A DNA stretch of 64,000 nucleotides from Bolinopsis microptera (taxonomy: Eukaryota; Ctenophora; Tentaculata; Lobata; Bolinopsidae). The notes under the pieces were generated by a model. The model made no database searches. It worked only from the letters and a program-made list of their open reading frames with translations, and was not told the origin of the DNA. Positions 14,751 to 25,038 of the stretch are shown here, piece by piece. How positions within the stretch are numbered: the stretch's first letter is position 1; each line of letters opens with the position of its first letter. A program made the position numbers and the translations under genes. Location: positions 15,953,837 through 16,017,836 of the forward strand of contig NC_087073.1 in the NCBI RefSeq assembly GCF_026151205.1, read 5' to 3'.

Positions 14751-15990
14751 ATTGATACATGTTTTTACCATGTGATAACTGAATTGTTGATTACGTAGTG
14801 CCTACTGCCTGATAGAAGCAATTATTATCCTAATCAGATTATGAAATCGCCACTCTCTTTTCACGTCTCGTTATGTTGATTTATAGGTTTTTTTGTCGCG
14901 CAACAACAACAATAGTTGGCGCAGTTAGCGTCAAATACTCAAGATCTCAGTAACAATTTACTAATTTGACCAATTCCAATATCTTCTTACACGGTTTCCT
15001 GGTCTGTTAGGTATCTAGAGTATACATCAGTCGCTGTGTACTGTGTAGTGTATAGACAGAGCATACATCTTGTATTTTTACTAGCTGCTGTATTTTGACA
15101 TCTGAAATGAATGAGGTAATGACTTGTTCTGTGTTCAATGAGAAATGTGAACCAGATACCGCATTTTTTAAATTAGTAGCAGTAGTAGTAGTAGTAGTAG
15201 TAGCGACGGAGATGTGTGCATTGCTGCGCTCAGCGATTACAGTAGAACCGGAAAACATACTGGAAGTAATGCATAACATAACATTTTCTGCATAATTGCA
15301 TGCGTTTCATGAGAGTGGTGGTTGAAAAAGAAGTAAGCATTGATTTTTTGTAGTTTGATGTTTAATGATATGATAGTCAATATAAATTATTTACTTCGTA
15401 AAATTGTATCTGTTGAAATTTAACTTATCAAACTGAAGGTGAGGGTATTTGTTGACTATAATAAAGCATTTAAATGGCGTTTTAAATCGTTGTAAAGTGT
15501 TTATTGTGATCCTAAGGATTAGAAACTGACAAGATTGGATATGATAAAGACCAAAGAGAAGATGAAAGTATCTTGACTCATGACTCAGAGTGGTATTGGA
15601 TGGAAGGATTGTGCTTATATTAGTGTGATTAATCGATATGTACACAGCTTGTTAGCACCGAAATGAAATAGTTTTTGCGTGTTGATACTTGATATTTAGT
15701 ACTTGCTAAAATTTGTATTGTAAACTTATGTGTGCTCACTTGTCGAGGTCATTCTATCTGCAATTTGAAACCGAATTCTTTATATGGTTAGTGGCTGATT
15801 TAAGATAAAACATCCAAAAACACGCCCCTTTCAAATCAGATGATGTTGTAACGTAACGTAGGGCGCCGCGGATAAATGATAATATTATATGAAAATCGGA
15901 TACATCCTATCGAGTAACTGCGCGTTAAAAATAATGCGCGCGTATATATACGTCACTTCATGAATGCAGTTTGTTTATTCTTTTATTTTA
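14751..15990. other. Intergenic; one TAG microsatellite
   Basis: No gene was recognised between the ACSL poly(A) signal and the left end of the transposon. A (TAG)n trinucleotide tract lies at about 15174-15203 and accounts for short open frames there. Confidence 0.5.
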
Positions 15991-16249
15991 GTAAGGGGAA
16001 AAGTGGCATTCCGTTGGATCGGTTTGTTCACGACGATTTCTCAACGGAATATGGTAGTTAAGACCCTTACGAACATAATTAGACTTGTTGCCAATTTTGT
16101 ATCTCGCCGCCACACCCTTTTTTTGCCACGCCCATTTTGAGGGTCTCGCGTGTAGTGAAAATCAGAGTTTTTGATAATTTTGGTCGAATTAGTCATGCTA
16201 TATATCAAACTAGGGGTATTAAGACTCGAGAAACACGTTGCAACTATCT
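15991..16249 (+). repeat. Left terminal inverted repeat
   Basis: 259 bp. From GTAAGGGGAAAAGTGG inward through AGACCCTTACGAACATAATT to GAAACACGTTGCAACTATCT it matches the reverse complement of 23479-23747. The inner boundary is sharp: similarity stops after CAACTATCT. Confidence 0.92.
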
Positions 16250-16629
16250 ATTTTAGTCTAAAACAATTCAAAATCAACATTTCGATAAATTTTATTGAAT
16301 TTTAATCTTGAAAACAGGAATAAACAAAGTTTCCCATCTCAAGGTACTGAAATGATATTTAAAACAATCAAATCTAGTATCATTGTTAGACTGAAAAATA
16401 CTCAGAATACCATAGGCATTTGGTATAATAGAGAAACATCATAAAACAAACTCCTCGCCAAGTGTAAACACGCTGGCAGTGAAATAAACAAGGTACAATA
16501 TACTGACGAAATATGGTACAATTCGAAATTAAAGTGCACTTCATAACCAAAATATCCATATATATTGTGTTGATGCATTTTGATCATAGTTCATTAAAAT
16601 TTGTTCATTGTGAAGCACTTCATTTAAAG

Positions 16630-19600
16630 CTAGTCGACGGTTTCAAACATACTATCTTCGTTATCGCAGTCTATGCATAAACAGGCTTCTGAACACCTTT
16701 GATTGTTTTTGTGGCAACCACATTGGTTGTTCACGCACTTGTTCTTTTTACATTTGCAGGTTATCATCTCTATACAAAATTCCGGTGCAGGTAAAATGTC
16801 CGTCATGACAGCTGCCAATCTGCCATCTTCAATCTTCCACCCCTGGTCTACAGAACAATCGGGATCGGAAGTGTGGGATGAAAGCTTAAAATTGAACGTT
16901 TCCACATGAGTGTGACGTAGTTTGCTCGTTTTATATGGAATTTAAGTGCTGCTTCCGTTGGAGGCAGGACTTCTCCATCTTCCTGATGTTTGGAATATAG
17001 CTCCCATCTCAAGGAGCCAACGTCCTTGACATTAGAGTATCTATTGAGATCGTCTTGTCTCTTTATATACAGTTTTACAGTGAACAAACTAAGACAGTCA
17101 ATCACATCATGTGCGATTTCTTCACCTCCACCGAACAGTTTCAGGCCTCTCATCATAGCTTCGTCATCGGCAAACAAACGAAGTGTTTTTAACGCCCTTG
17201 ATTTGGTGATTTTGTTGAACCTGCCTGTGTAATCACATCCCGTGAAAATGTAAGCTCCAAGGAGGGCCTCGCATAAACTTAATCCAAGAGAATTCACCAC
17301 CGACTTTATTGGGACTACTTTTCTTTTTTTACTCGTTATCAGCTCAAATATTATGTCCATACCAGTTACCTGCGTTGTAAGATATATAGCTAGTATAAAG
17401 ACATCGGTATCTGGAGATACTATCCGAAATGTCGGAGGGTTCACAGCATCAGAGCTAAGCTGCCTGATAATGCACAGCAAAAGTGTATCAGCTTCGTGCT
17501 GGCTATGTGTTTCAATTTCCCACTCTGGCATATTTGATAGTATCTCAGTTCCTTGCACAATGATAAACAACTTGTGCAAGGAACCTAATTCAGCCATGAC
17601 CATCTTTGAGAAAAACTGACACATGATTTTTTTGTTCTCTGGGTGAGACATAAGCTCCTTAAGTTTGATGTTTTTGATAATGGTCCGCTCTGACAGTTTG
17701 TATTCAATTTGATTTTTGTGTCTGTCACACCATGTCTGTTTCTTCAAATTGGACAATGATTGGTCGTAACGATCAAATACTAAGACAACCTTTGGATACA
17801 GAGAAGTTTCGTCAATAATCCGTTTAGTAAATTGTTTCGAAAGATCTTCTAGTGTAACAATATCTGGAGACATTTTCAGCTGGTTTGCAATACCCATACC
17901 GTCAATAACAATAAAGTCCTGCGATGGGGAATGTGATGATTTCTCTGTTGAAACTCCGACGTGACCAATTATATCATTGAAAAAGTCAGACTTGTCAGTG
18001 CACTTCAATAATCTTCCTTCAGAGTTGAACAAAGAGTGAGGAACCACGGTAAACTCGTAAGTCTTCACCAGTTCTGCAACATCCAGGCTTGATCTTGAGC
18101 GTGATATTACGAGGAGACGTGTCATTAGCCCTCGCTCCTCTCTGAGTTTAACAATCTTTTCTGTGGTCTTGATCGTTATGGCTTTATTCAGAGTCTTGAA
18201 GGTTTTCAGTTTCCGTTTTGTTAATGTTTCCCATATAGAGACGTTTGTTTTCGACCCTTCAAATCTTTCAGTTGTGAAATCATTCAACATTACCTCCCCA
18301 ATTTCTTTGATGTTCAGTATCTCCATATCGTCTTTCAGTACGGTGTGAGACATCACATTGAACACTATTTTGGTCGTCTTCAAGTCAACATCAAGGAAAT
18401 CAACTAACGCAGCTTTGTAAATTTGGACTCGTTCGGTGTGGAACTTTTTATAACCATTTGCGTCTTCATAATGAATATGGTTTGTTGTATCAGGATTTGA
18501 TGTCTCAAACTGCTTAGTAAATTGCTCCCGCAGTAATCGTTTAATCGGTGCAGTTAAAACGTACGTGTCAATTCCTTCGTCTGACAAACCTACTATCCCT
18601 CCCATCGACTTAAGCTCTTTGTTAACTTGCTCAAGACAGTGGTCCACTCCTATCGCTACGAAAGGCGCTTCAGTTTTATTACAACAAAAATTTTTGGAGA
18701 GGAATAACCACGTTGCTGGATCTTCGGTTCGGAGTTTATTCATTGAGGACAAGTACACAGGTGTCATTCTGGCGTAGTTTTGCAAATCCAAAGCAAAGAA
18801 GTATTTTGTGAATTTATCCAATGATACTAGGTGTAAGTTCCAAAGTTGTTGCCTTGTAGCTCTCATAAATAGTAACATTGTTTGTATCATTTCTAACACA
18901 TTATTGAGAAACTTTCCCTGTTTCGGAAGATCTTCCCTGAATGTCTGGAACTTTGAAAAGATTTTACCCGACTTCAATTCCTCGATGAGCTGATTATGAC
19001 AGGAAGGCACATCTTGTAAGCCTGTTCTCATCTTATGCAGAATGGGACCGACAATTTCTTTTACCTTTTCCTTAGATTCATCGTCAGTGTCCAGAAATTG
19101 ATCGTATAATGTCTGAAAAATGGACGTGTATAATATCAGGCTAGCAGCCACGCACCGTTTCATGTGCTTTCCTTCTAGAATCTTCCCTATGGCTAATGGA
19201 CCGTAAATACCGCAGTGACTGAACAGCTTCTCGAGTCCACTATTGTCAATATATTTCCCAATAGCTCTACACATAGCAAAAACTACATGTAACTCGCCCA
19301 TCCTGAATATGAAGTGATCTCCGATATCCCCTTTGGAATACAACTGTATCGCCTTTATGTACAGCTGCAGATCTAAAGTGACGATCGTTTTTTGATCTGG
19401 TGTGATTTTTGTAGATATGCCTTGGCACATCTTCAATGCTGTATACAGTGTCGACCAATCTGTAGGCGGTGACTTTATAAGAGGAAGCATTGCAATGTTT
19501 GTGACCCCAGCTTTGGAACAAAGTCTCGCGTTGTATGATTTCTAGGTAAGTGTAAACTGATTTTCTTCATCATATAGCTGTTGTAAGCCCCAGGTTTCGT

Positions 19601-22600
19601 CGTAATGTTGATATCTTTGCTCGTCAACACATACAGTTCCACGATACTTCGGAAGAGGTGGAGATAACATCTTTGGGGGGTAACATTGCTGCAGCTTAAC
19701 GTTGAGATTGCTCCGTGTGTCATCATTTTGAGTTGATGATACCCTTGACAACTTAATCACTTGTTCTCCCAACTTAACATCATTCTGGAAAACTGTTATC
19801 AATGTACCATGGAGCTGACCTTTCCCATCTTTACTGTCCCGCTGGAAATCAGAGTTATCAATGGCAAAATAGGGTCTTGTTTTTTTGCAGATTGTTAAAG
19901 GCACGTAGCAGTTGTTTTCATCTAAACAATGTACCTTGGCGTAACTCTCGATGCAATCTTCAATGAGCTTTATTTTTTTGTAGTCTTCAGAAACGTTAAG
20001 GCCCTTCGTTTCCGTAATAATCTTTTTGCTCCGAGTACTGTTGTGGATGGAGAGTCCTAAACCAACAGAGAAAGGGGTTTCATTACTGTGGAATCGCTGT
20101 TGTGGGCCATTAACATCACCTTTGGCTAAGCTTCTTCTCACAGATCGATCACTTTTCGTGTTAATGGAGATGAGCTGACACAGCATATCTATTGTCTTGC
20201 TGGTTTCTTTAGCCTTAAATTGTGTAAGATCGCCGGTAACATCACCATACAGCAGCCATTTCAGAAACGATTTCAATTCAATAGGAGACTGGAATGAGGT
20301 AAAATCTCCTGTAAACGTCCATTTGCTTAGCTCTGCGTCCTCCATCGACTTTCGAATCACAAGTGCTGCCTTACGAATATTCCACATATTAAGATCCTCA
20401 ATCAATGCATCAACTGCAAAAGAGACAACTCTAGTAGAACATACAGTATCAGGACGATTTTTTAGTGTGTTCGGGATGAAGACTATACCACTTAGATTGT
20501 CAAGAATCAATTCCTTAATGTGCTTTTTAAACTTATTTGCTCCAAGAACACTCTCATCGACAGGAACATGGTGCGAAAAAATGGTGACGTACTGTTTATG
20601 TAGCTCCTTGGTATTGGTCCGAAAGTCTCTGTAACCGACAGTCTCGCACTTATCTAATAGCCAAATAAGAAACTCAAGGTCTACGGCCTGTCCTGGCTCG
20701 GTACTCTGCACCCTCTTCTGTTCAATTTGATCGGCATTTCTCTCTGCTTCAACCAAACACTTCTTATGATACATGATATCTCCAGCAACCGCATCTGGGA
20801 CAGCTCTCAAGCGAATCCCAAGCTGTTCATCAGTAGTGACCCTAGCAATACGACAAAATGATTCACTTACAGGGAGAGTGAGAACGAGATGCAGTGTATC
20901 AGCTGTCCCCAGGCAGAACACACACGATCTGCGAACAGAAATAAAATAGAATCAATTGAACTCCTGAATTTATTTTTAAGATTAATAATAATTAACAGTT
21001 AATTAGGGTTAATATTTATCAATTACATCACCAGCAACACGGCTAAACGGACACAAGGACAATATCACGAAAATAAACCGAAACGGACTCAATCACGCAC
21101 ACAGGGACAATATCACGCAAATAAACAGACTTTATCACGCACACAGGGACAATATCACGCAAAAAACGGACTTAATCACGCACACAGGGACAATATCACG
21201 CAAATGAACAGACTTTATCACGCACACAGGGACAATATCACGCAAATGAACAGACTTTATCACGCACACAGGGACAATATCACGCAAATGAACAGACTTT
21301 ATCATGCACACAGGGACAATATCACGCAAATGAACAGACTTTATCACGCACACAGGGACAATATCACGCAAATGAACAGACTTTATCACGCACACGGGGA
21401 CAATATCACGCAAATGAACAGACTTTATCACGCACACGGGGACAATATCACGCAAATAAACAGAGTTGATTACGCACACAGGGACAATGTCACGCAAATG
21501 AACAGACTTTATCATGCACACAGGGATAATATCACGCAAATGAACAGACTTTATCACGCACACAGGGACAATATCACGCAAATGAACAGACTTTATCACG
21601 CACACAGGGACAATATCACGCAAATGAACAGACTTTATCACGCACAAAGGGACAATATCACGCAAATGAACAGACTTTATCACGCACACGGGGACAATAT
21701 CACGCAAATGAACAGACTTTATCATGCACACAGGGACAATATCACGCAAATGAACAGACTTTATCACGCACACAGGGACAATATCACGCAAATGAACAGA
21801 CTTTATCACGCACAAAGGGACAATATCACGCAAATGAACAGACTTTATCAAGCAAATAACGTACTCCTACACGAACAATTATAAGATAACACAATATGAC
21901 CTTGTTTTAATTATTATCAATTTAAAACAAAAAGTGCTGCAGTCTTTTAAATCTAAAACTGACCTGAACACTGAAGACGGCAATGCTTGAGATCTTGTTA
22001 GTATTCCTTCATGAGGTTCAGGAGAGATGTGCGGGGGATCTTTATTAGCAGGCTTTCCTGGACCACGATTTAGCTGACAGGGTTCTCCTGAGAAAATAAA
22101 ATAATCAATACGCGTTTTGCATTTAATTCTATGTTTGCAACTGTCAGACAGCGACAGGATGCACAATTATGTAATTTTCATAAATTAAATTTAAAGGACA
22201 AAAGGCACCTGTAAAATTTTGAGTCAGTATATTTTTAAATGCCTTAATTGGTAATCAGAATCCAGTAAGAAGATGGTGGCTTAGTAAATACGTTGCATAA
22301 ACTTTATACAAAAAGCACATAGACCGTACCTGAGTCAATCGATTCTTGGTAGCGCCGTTTGCACCGTTGAAGTTTACTTATGGAGCTGAATTCCTGATAA
22401 CAGATGCGATGATACCAGCCAGATAGCAGGTCAATAGCAGTTTTGCCAGATTTTAGGAGAATTTGGCACGTCTCCAGTACCTTTTGGTCTCCCCAAGATG
22501 CTCGATCATGGACATTCTTAAGAAGCTTGTCGATAATTTCGACACTGCTTGGGCAACCTAGAAACAAACACAATTAACTTATACATATAGTAAGAGGACA

Positions 22601-22874
22601 TAAATTAGACCATGTACGATGTTTACACTGCAATATCGATATTCGGTACTGCACATTTGAAAGAAAAAACTGGACGATTACATAGCAAATGTTGTTGCTG
22701 ATATTAATTCCTGCAACTAGTTATTCGTATACAAAAGTTTTGAAAAAACAAAGCGGGATATATATATATCAATTTAAACTTACTTTTTGTTTGGTTGCCA
22801 TGCACCTCTTGGCAAAGAATGCAGTTATCTAGTGTAAAGTCGACCCGACGACGTTTCAATTTAGACAAGATCAT
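16630..22874 (-). pseudogene. Transposon-encoded FEN1/XPG-like nuclease with N-terminal zinc modules and C-terminal CXC cluster; one stop and one frameshift
   Basis: Four exons join in phase: 22874-22784, 22557-22330, 22087-21964, 20928-16630. Two zinc-type modules come first (CILC...WYHRIC; CVFC...MYHKKC). Exon 4 is open for ~460 codons to TAG 19544-19542, continues in the same frame for ~897 codons, then needs a frame change near 16848-16868 to reach an in-register CXC tail (ITCKCKKNKC ... CLCIDCDN). Numbered from the Met at 19490, the nuclease acids follow FEN1/XPG order: VIDG (D530), FDRYD (572-576), HEAD (E666, D668), SPDTDV (D694, D696), GCDYT (D753). From memory, this resembles a family common as uncharacterised proteins in cnidarians and other invertebrates. 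Two lesions only: recent decay, recoding, or assembly errors. A minus-strand AATAAA lies at 16296-16291. Transposase function is inference. Confidence 0.82.
21040..21858. repeat. 42-bp minisatellite inside the transposon gene's third intron
   Basis: About 19 units containing AATGAACAGACTTTATCACG and CACACAGGGACAATATCACG, between the donor at 21963 and the acceptor at 20929 of the transposon gene. The unit is a multiple of 3, so both strands are open across it (14-residue periodic frames). These are not genes. Confidence 0.93.
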
Positions 22875-23478
22875 GTAATAGCAATACTCTGAAAGTGAGG
22901 ACGGTTAAATTAAATTTAAAAACTTACAAAAGTAAAAAGTAAGTTCGATTGAATTCGAATTCTAACAATTTCTTTGTGCACAAATATTCATGGCATTATA
23001 AAAAGTTGAAAAAAGAGCACACGTACCGATTGCAGTTCAAAACGAAAAATGTGAGAGATCTTCGTCTATCGGGCATCCCTGGGGAAGGCAGGGCGGGCCT
23101 ACGCCCCATACACTTCGAGTTTAAGTCTTCCTCCACAGAGCATTCCGATAGTATGAGCCCAGCAAGTTAGAGATCATCTTATCCCATCGTGCATACACAA
23201 ATATATGTGTAATATATATGCATATATGCAGCGTGGGAATGCCAGGGACTGTCTTTTGCTTAATGTCTAATTGTTTACCAGACTTTGTGAAACCAGTTAA
23301 CTTTAGTATTTGAACATTGTAATTAAGTTCTTGAGACTGAATAATTAAACAAAACGCTAAATATGGAAATATGTATTCGCAAAGTACTCATGTAACTGCA
23401 CCCATTTTATCATAGTTAGTTTCATTCTAATCTAGATAATATCAGAGAACGCGGTTCCTGAGCACATTGGCTTTAAAC

Positions 23479-23747
23479 AGATAGTTGCAACGTGTTTCTC
23501 GAGTCTTAAAACCCCTAGTTTGATATATAGCATGACAAATTCGACCAAAATTATCAAAAACTCTGATTTTCACTACACGCGAGACCCTCAAAATGGGCGT
23601 GGCAAAAAAAGGGTGTGGCGGCGAGATACAAAATTGGCAACAAGTCTAATTATGTTCGTAAGGGTCTTAACTACCATATTCCGTTGAGAAATCGTTGTGA
23701 ACAAACCGATCCAACGGAACCCTTAAATCGACCACTTTTCCCCTTAC
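23479..23747 (-). repeat. Right terminal inverted repeat
   Basis: 269 bp, inverted copy of 15991-16249. It carries about 10 extra bases near its outer end (around CCTTAAATCGACCAC). The short plus-strand open frame at 23615-23809 is a by-product of the TIR. Confidence 0.92.
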
Positions 23748-25038
23748 TATTTCGGAATTTTGAATCTATCTTTCGTTGGGACGGCACGCCGCACGGTATT
23801 GATATTTGATTTCTCTGGTGACTTACTTTGGACCACTATTCAATGAATGCTCTCTGAATTCAACGAACATGGTCTGCTGTGACAAAGACAAGTCACAAGT
23901 GCCGTCGATTCTGAGAATTGTCCCAATCCTTGCTCTGTTTTCTGCTTATTATTAGTACGTGCAGCTGACAGCTGTGTTACAGCTGACAGCTGTCCTGTAA
24001 TAATATAATATGAGAAGCGAACAAGACGATCACTAAGTCATTACAAACTGAGATCGGATTCCTGGAAAATGTAACAATCGTAAACTGCTCCATTTTTCGG
24101 ACACAACAGTGAACAGGGCCGGCGTTACGAGATATCAATTACTGGGTAATTACTTCTTTTCGACATCTGCATCAATCCTTAGAATGTGTCACTACAATCA
24201 TACTAGAGTAATCAGCAAATGTCAACAAACGTCACCAGGACCGGAGTTGTGGTCTCCGAGTCGGTAATCACACTATATAGTGACAACACTATATAGTGAC
24301 AAGCACTTTATAATGACAGCTGATCTTTTTCATTATATAGTGTGCAAAACGCACTATATAATGACAACACTATATAGTGACAAGTTTATCTTATATCGAC
24401 TTTTCCTTACTTTTCTTTAATTCTACTTTTAGAACACACGGCTAATATAATATTAGCCGAATTCAACTCGTTTTTACCAAAAACTAGCTTATATGCTGTA
24501 AATTGGACAGTGAACACCTATCGCCATCATCAACATGGAGTTGTTCGCCTATTATAAAGTATAAAAACTTAAAAACAATCACACAATTTGTGAACAGGAC
24601 GATTTAAATGAATTCTAGCTTCAAGACCGTTATTAAACTGGTTACAGATAGTATCGTCACTTTAAGTAGAAAACTACTTATGAATTGTGACTTGTGTACT
24701 GGAATTGTAGTTACTGCTGTAGGTAATTGTAGGTACTGCTGCTCTCGTAGTTAGCTTACAGCTCTGTATGGTAAGTTTGGTAATTTATATTCCCACTTAT
24801 TCTCAACGTTGTTATCGTATGTCGTATGTGAACACCATTATATTGATCTCTCCCATATTCAACACAATAGAGGCTTACAGGGGCATGGTACGACATCATC
24901 GGCACATGCCAAAACCCTCTTACAGTATGTCTCTTTTTCTCTGAAAACACACATTCTGTTCAACATTTTATTGTGTGCTAATATAATAAAGCTGATAAAG
25001 AACTCTTTTCTCTTACCTCTTGTTTTTCTTTCACACAG
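23748..25038. other. Intergenic or 5' region of the sulfotransferase; short palindromic repeats
   Basis: No coding exon was recognised. At about 24270-24385 there are repeated ACTATATAGTGACAA motifs (self-complementary CACTATATAGTG cores), and near 23960-23998 tandem CAGCTGACAGCTGT palindromes. A start-containing first exon of the downstream sulfotransferase should lie here; ATG directly followed by GTAAGT at about 24769 gives the wrong phase. Confidence 0.45.

Follow-up and report, generated by a model that had tools for sequence, protein, structure and literature searches.

A 7.8 kb mobile element in the genome of Bolinopsis microptera was found to carry a single gene whose protein combines a conserved D-D-E set of acidic residues with a FEN1/XPG-like nuclease region and a CXC tail. 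The element most likely represents a new AcademX family, set beside AcademX by published description. The window, the whole stretch of DNA that was analysed, is 64,000 nucleotides long and corresponds to positions 15953837-16017836 of C2 in the source genome, which is 264.7 Mb. A sequence-only reading of the window had proposed a transposon in which a FEN1/XPG-type nuclease fold, followed by a CXC tail in the only protein, stood in for a DDE transposase. The association of nuclease and CXC tail in the one protein of a mobile element is supported by the present analysis. The replacement of a DDE transposase is not, as the same polypeptide has the conserved D-D-E set and the element fits AcademX as published.

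The search for other copies that had been suggested earlier was carried out in the source genome, the query being the initial 410 bases of the element as originally delimited, and gave at least 42 matches. Five of these, among the matches listed, covered the full query length at 99-100% identity, and the remainder were shorter or more diverged. Four complete copies (the window copy, L010, L011 and L012) aligned with 99.3-99.6% identity over about 7.6-7.7 kb, L012 having a rearranged right end. The fifth, the C10 copy (L013/L014), has ends about 15 kb apart and appears to be split by inserted DNA. The element is a recently active, multi-copy family. The long, near-identical terminal inverted repeats (TIRs) that had been claimed were present, with arms (16009-16253 and 23475-23719) that are 98% complementary. 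The limits first assigned, 15991 to 23747, correctly located a mobile element but not its exact edges, which lie at 15989 and 23749 (Table 1).

The dinucleotide TA, also recorded in the earlier reading, lies outside GTAAGGGG at nearly every end seen, isolated ends included, and is therefore part of the TIR. Its role as the target duplication was ruled out, since it is the 3 bp outside the TA that are duplicated, exactly so in 8 of the 9 insertions with both ends examined. These comprise the window copy (ttt), L010 (tta), L011 (ttt), the split copy L013/L014 (gtc), a 374-bp element, L016 (ata), and three non-autonomous copies read from their flanks, L058 (tta), L059 (gag) and L060 (taa). The ninth insertion, L012, had cag on the left and, with its rearranged right end, no exact 3-bp pair. 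The fourth flanking base was mismatched in all four insertions scored for it (window, L010, L011 and L016), and the diverged TIR matches L015, L017, L018 and L019 were left out of the duplication scoring. Of three elements from other families in this genome, two had an exact 3-bp duplication, L044 (aga) and L046 (tag), both lying between TIRs, and none was found at the ends of the third, L045. Fixed 3-bp duplications are the expected product when a DDE transposase carries out paired strand transfer.

Table 1. Positions in the window of the element, its target duplications and the parts of its gene.
Feature	Position	Strand	Basis
Whole element, 7761 bp, ends TAGTAAGGGG...CCCCTTACTA	15989..23749	.	
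Left target duplication, 3 bp (TTT)	15986..15988	.	
Right target duplication, 3 bp (TTT)	23750..23752	.	
Left terminal inverted repeat	15989..16253	+	
Right terminal inverted repeat	23475..23749	-	
Exon 1, Met start and first Cys module	22784..22874	-	gene model of intact L011 mapped to window
Exon 2	22330..22557	-	splice sites and L011-based gene model
Exon 3	21964..22087	-	splice sites and L011-based gene model
Exon 4, large, with Cys/His module, DDE-like region, nuclease and CXC; disrupted in window copy	16630..20928	-	
DDE-like region, approximate limits	18252..19889	-	L011 exon-4 residue numbers converted to window by hand
D365; D527; E774	19857-19859; 19371-19373; 18630-18632	-	L011 exon-4 frame, converted by hand
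FEN1/XPG-like nuclease region (VIDG, VFDRYD, HEAD, SPDTD, TGCDY)	16917..17954	-	approximate, hand-converted
CXC (Tesmin/TSO1-like) domain, frame-shifted relative to upstream part in window copy	16657..16761	-	hand-converted
In-frame stop TAG in window copy; sense codon in C12 copy	19542..19544	-	
42-bp minisatellite in intron 3	21039..21884	+	

Among the matches listed, 24 further loci (L020-L043) share roughly the first 115 bases with the element and then have a different interior, for which the per-column agreement among them is about 0.87-1.0 over the first 960 bases. The far ends of these copies were not found within loci of 2.2 kb; longer loci were then taken for three of the 24 (L058-L060), and these copies, 2.9-4.1 kb long, were followed to a far end with an 18-base perfect TIR match. 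Only terminal sequence is shared between this non-autonomous family, with its 24 loci, and the element, with 5 (among the matches listed). It has the appearance expected of a family that the element's protein mobilises in trans.

The C12 copy (L011) has a single frame of 1438 codons that runs from the second Cys/His module through the CXC tail, and three upstream exons with GT/AG borders extend it to a 1578-aa frame with a Met start and without an inner stop. The C5 copy (L012) likewise has an open frame of 1438 codons, while one stop and one frame break were found in the C6 copy. In the window copy, the TAG codon at 19542-19544 leaves the first of the three DDE acids in a separate frame, and a 5-nt insertion near 16862-16866, absent from the C12 copy, shifts the CXC part out of frame. 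Because of these two lesions, the window copy is, as far as its sequence indicates, probably not autonomous. The change of frame before the CXC part, formerly put down to splicing, is accounted for by the same insertion. The minisatellite in the third intron has about 20 units in the window copy and forms a shorter array in the C12 copy.

The N-terminal Cys/His modules described earlier could be read from the protein, and the Tesmin/TSO1-type identity of the CXC tail was upheld by Pfam, where PF03638 matched the window piece with an E-value of 1.3e-6 and 29 bits, compared with a curated cut-off of 23.5, and matched L011 at 24.6 bits, also over the cut-off. The CXC was the only match above cut-off in the Pfam searches. 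The sole match in a profile search of the PDB was the CXC of LIN54 (E 0.032), and a sequence search of the PDB returned one row at chance level. The CXC cysteine pattern is common to the element protein and the LIN54/Tesmin proteins, although the LIN54 chain shows two CXC units and the element protein one. The LIN54-type site is TTYGAA; it was looked for in the TIRs of the element and none was present.

DDE-like, nuclease and CXC parts also occur in distant families of the same genome, seen at L045, L046, L047, L048, L049, L180, L181, L184 and L185, with open frames of 1568 codons in L045 and 1557 codons in L046. Residue conservation was read from an alignment of nine rows that represent about five lineages: L011/L044, L045, the group L046/L049/L181/L185, L180 and L184. 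Rows L046, L181 and L185 are mutually 91-95% identical, and the other pairs mostly about 20%. L044 was represented by the first of its two frames; L047 and L048, which are visibly close to L045, were omitted, as were L182, L183 and L186 of one seven-locus set.

The five FEN1/XPG-like motifs of the earlier reading were confirmed in the protein and are kept in the distant relatives. Common to the rows are VID, a strand motif that includes a D or E and has Y at its end, E-A-D, D-x-D and G-x-D. The acids D1017, D1155, D1181, D1183 and D1240 were invariant in all eight rows covering them; E1153 is replaced by D in L184, and the second motif carries E in L046, L049, L181 and L185. No Pfam DDE or XPG model matched L011 or the relatives scanned, and for the XPG family this held at E-values up to 5 in L011 and four relative frames. 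In an HH comparison run at a low threshold, a profile built from L011 and nine of its relatives was aligned with 89 archaeal FEN1 frames (the usable ones from at least 119 archaeal-type stretches) over 286 columns with the five motifs in register. The score of 22.2 was weak: of 200 column shuffles, 2 equalled or beat it, and the probability was 1.2%. Against six pieces of XPG/FEN1-family proteins, the score was again weak (20.5, equalled or beaten by 1 of 200 column shuffles; probability 1.3%), and the E-values of the two comparisons, 0.038 and 0.044, were weak as well. The profile set against the archaeal frames leaned towards the EAD motif, since an [EH]EAD match was required: three of the seven loci of one set entered it (L181, L182 and L185), and L180 (LEAD) and L184 (DDAD) were dropped. 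An AlphaFold model of the nuclease region, made from the single sequence without an alignment, had a mean pLDDT of 37.2, too low for the model to be used. The order and register of the motifs, more than the score, make a remote kinship with FEN1/XPG likely. The acidic motifs follow the same order as in the FEN1, XPG, EXO1 and GEN1 nucleases, with which the HH alignment is in register; the element protein differs from them in having no Pfam XPG match, in its weak HH score and in the location of the domain inside a transposon protein. Relatives were also looked for in viral and prokaryote contigs, where none was confirmed. The nuclease of AcademX elements is of the XPG type.

The statement that the protein has no DDE transposase had to be abandoned at the level of motifs. 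A D-D-E set follows the N-terminal modules and precedes the nuclease region, and it is conserved both in the protein and in its relatives: D365, in the context IDN, in 4 of 4 covering rows, D527 and G552xxH555 each in 7 of 7, and E774, in the context DxxxE, in 9 of 9. Of the invariant columns listed for residues 376 to 965, only D527, D770 and E774 are acids. In each relative examined, whatever of the core falls within the open frame is present, the frames of L180 and L185 starting after D527, and the DDE-bearing relatives in the same genome, at about 20% identity, also carry nuclease and CXC parts. The Pfam family DUF6589 gave weak matches in two of six relatives (best E 5.6e-4, below the cut-off); the name was not found in the literature searched, and the family may be an unrecognised transposase core.

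We assign the element with considerable confidence to the AcademX lineage of the Academ superfamily, as a cut-and-paste transposon in which a DDE transposase and a nuclease are fused. This placement was matched to AcademX by published description and follows from 1) 3-bp duplications and a nuclease, as passages of PMC10045372 report 3-4 bp target duplications and an encoded nuclease for AcademX, and 2) the counting of Academ among the DDE (DDD/E) superfamilies in parts of PMC10294476 and PMC9587614. The duplications agree exactly at 3 bp, the nuclease agrees at the level of motifs and remote profiles, and the DDD/E catalytic residues agree at the level of motifs. The AcademH lineage, of the same superfamily in the published account, differs in encoding a helicase and in its 9-10 bp duplications (PMC10045372, in part), whereas the element has 3 bp and Pfam scans of its protein gave no helicase domain; the relevant passages of PMC10799480 speak of AcademH helicases only. 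The Kolobok lineages KolobokE, KolobokD and KolobokP likewise join a DDE transposase to an extra nuclease, but the portion of PMC9587614 that treats them gives other nuclease folds and TTAA duplications. The TA at nearly every end would suit a Tc1/mariner-like element with TA target duplications, but the TA belongs to the TIR, the three bases outside it are the ones duplicated and are varied (TTT, TTA, GTC, ATA, GAG and TAA), and Pfam scans showed no mariner domain, so that this reading is hardly credible. A separate new superfamily, related to Academ but outside it, is also improbable. The weak, below-cut-off DUF6589 matches and the comparison with Academ by description would allow it, but the duplication length and the nuclease are those given for AcademX in PMC10045372, and at 7.8 kb the element exceeds the 5565 bp mean of bivalve Academ consensus elements, which according to a section of PMC10294476 are themselves among the longest there.

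The same evidence bears on which part of the protein transposes the element. In favour of the FEN1/XPG nuclease acting as the transposase, with a middle region that has no DDE function, are the counterparts of the FEN1-type acids, five of them invariant, and the single-sequence AlphaFold model of the DDE-like region, made without an alignment, whose mean pLDDT of 34.5 was too low to show a DDE fold. The D-D-GxxH-E set is, however, equally conserved across relatives of about 20% identity, and fixed 3-bp duplications are what paired DDE strand transfer would leave. Moreover, the nuclease and the 3-4 bp duplications are described for AcademX in PMC10045372, and PMC10294476 and PMC9587614 place Academ among the DDD/E superfamilies, and we give the nuclease-as-transposase reading little credence. 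The sequence evidence is best explained by cutting and joining of the DDE type, with integration at a 3-bp stagger, and most likely the DDE part would transpose the element while the nuclease processes DNA beside it.

In the proposed mechanism, the product of one spliced gene would join Cys/His modules, a DDE transposase core of the RNase H type, a nuclease of the FEN1/XPG type and a CXC domain. The DDE core would cut and join the ends, and the Cys/His modules, the CXC or both would contact DNA. The nuclease might trim or cut branched intermediates, for example by cleaving the second strand during excision or by acting on flaps left at the 3-bp gaps, or it might act in the manner of a host repair enzyme. 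The retention of the nuclease acids across distant relatives argues that the nuclease is needed. A stricter division of labour, in which the DDE core performs cleavage and transfer of one strand, the FEN1/XPG site makes the second-strand cut or removes flaps, and the nuclease is obligate and not accessory, is conceivable but doubtful.

What appeared to be a nuclease-only transposon is a family with clear limits and recent activity, which most likely belongs to AcademX and has natural uninterrupted copies. Because relatives within the same genome keep both acidic sets at about 20% identity, the family offers a practical means of studying the function of the AcademX nuclease.
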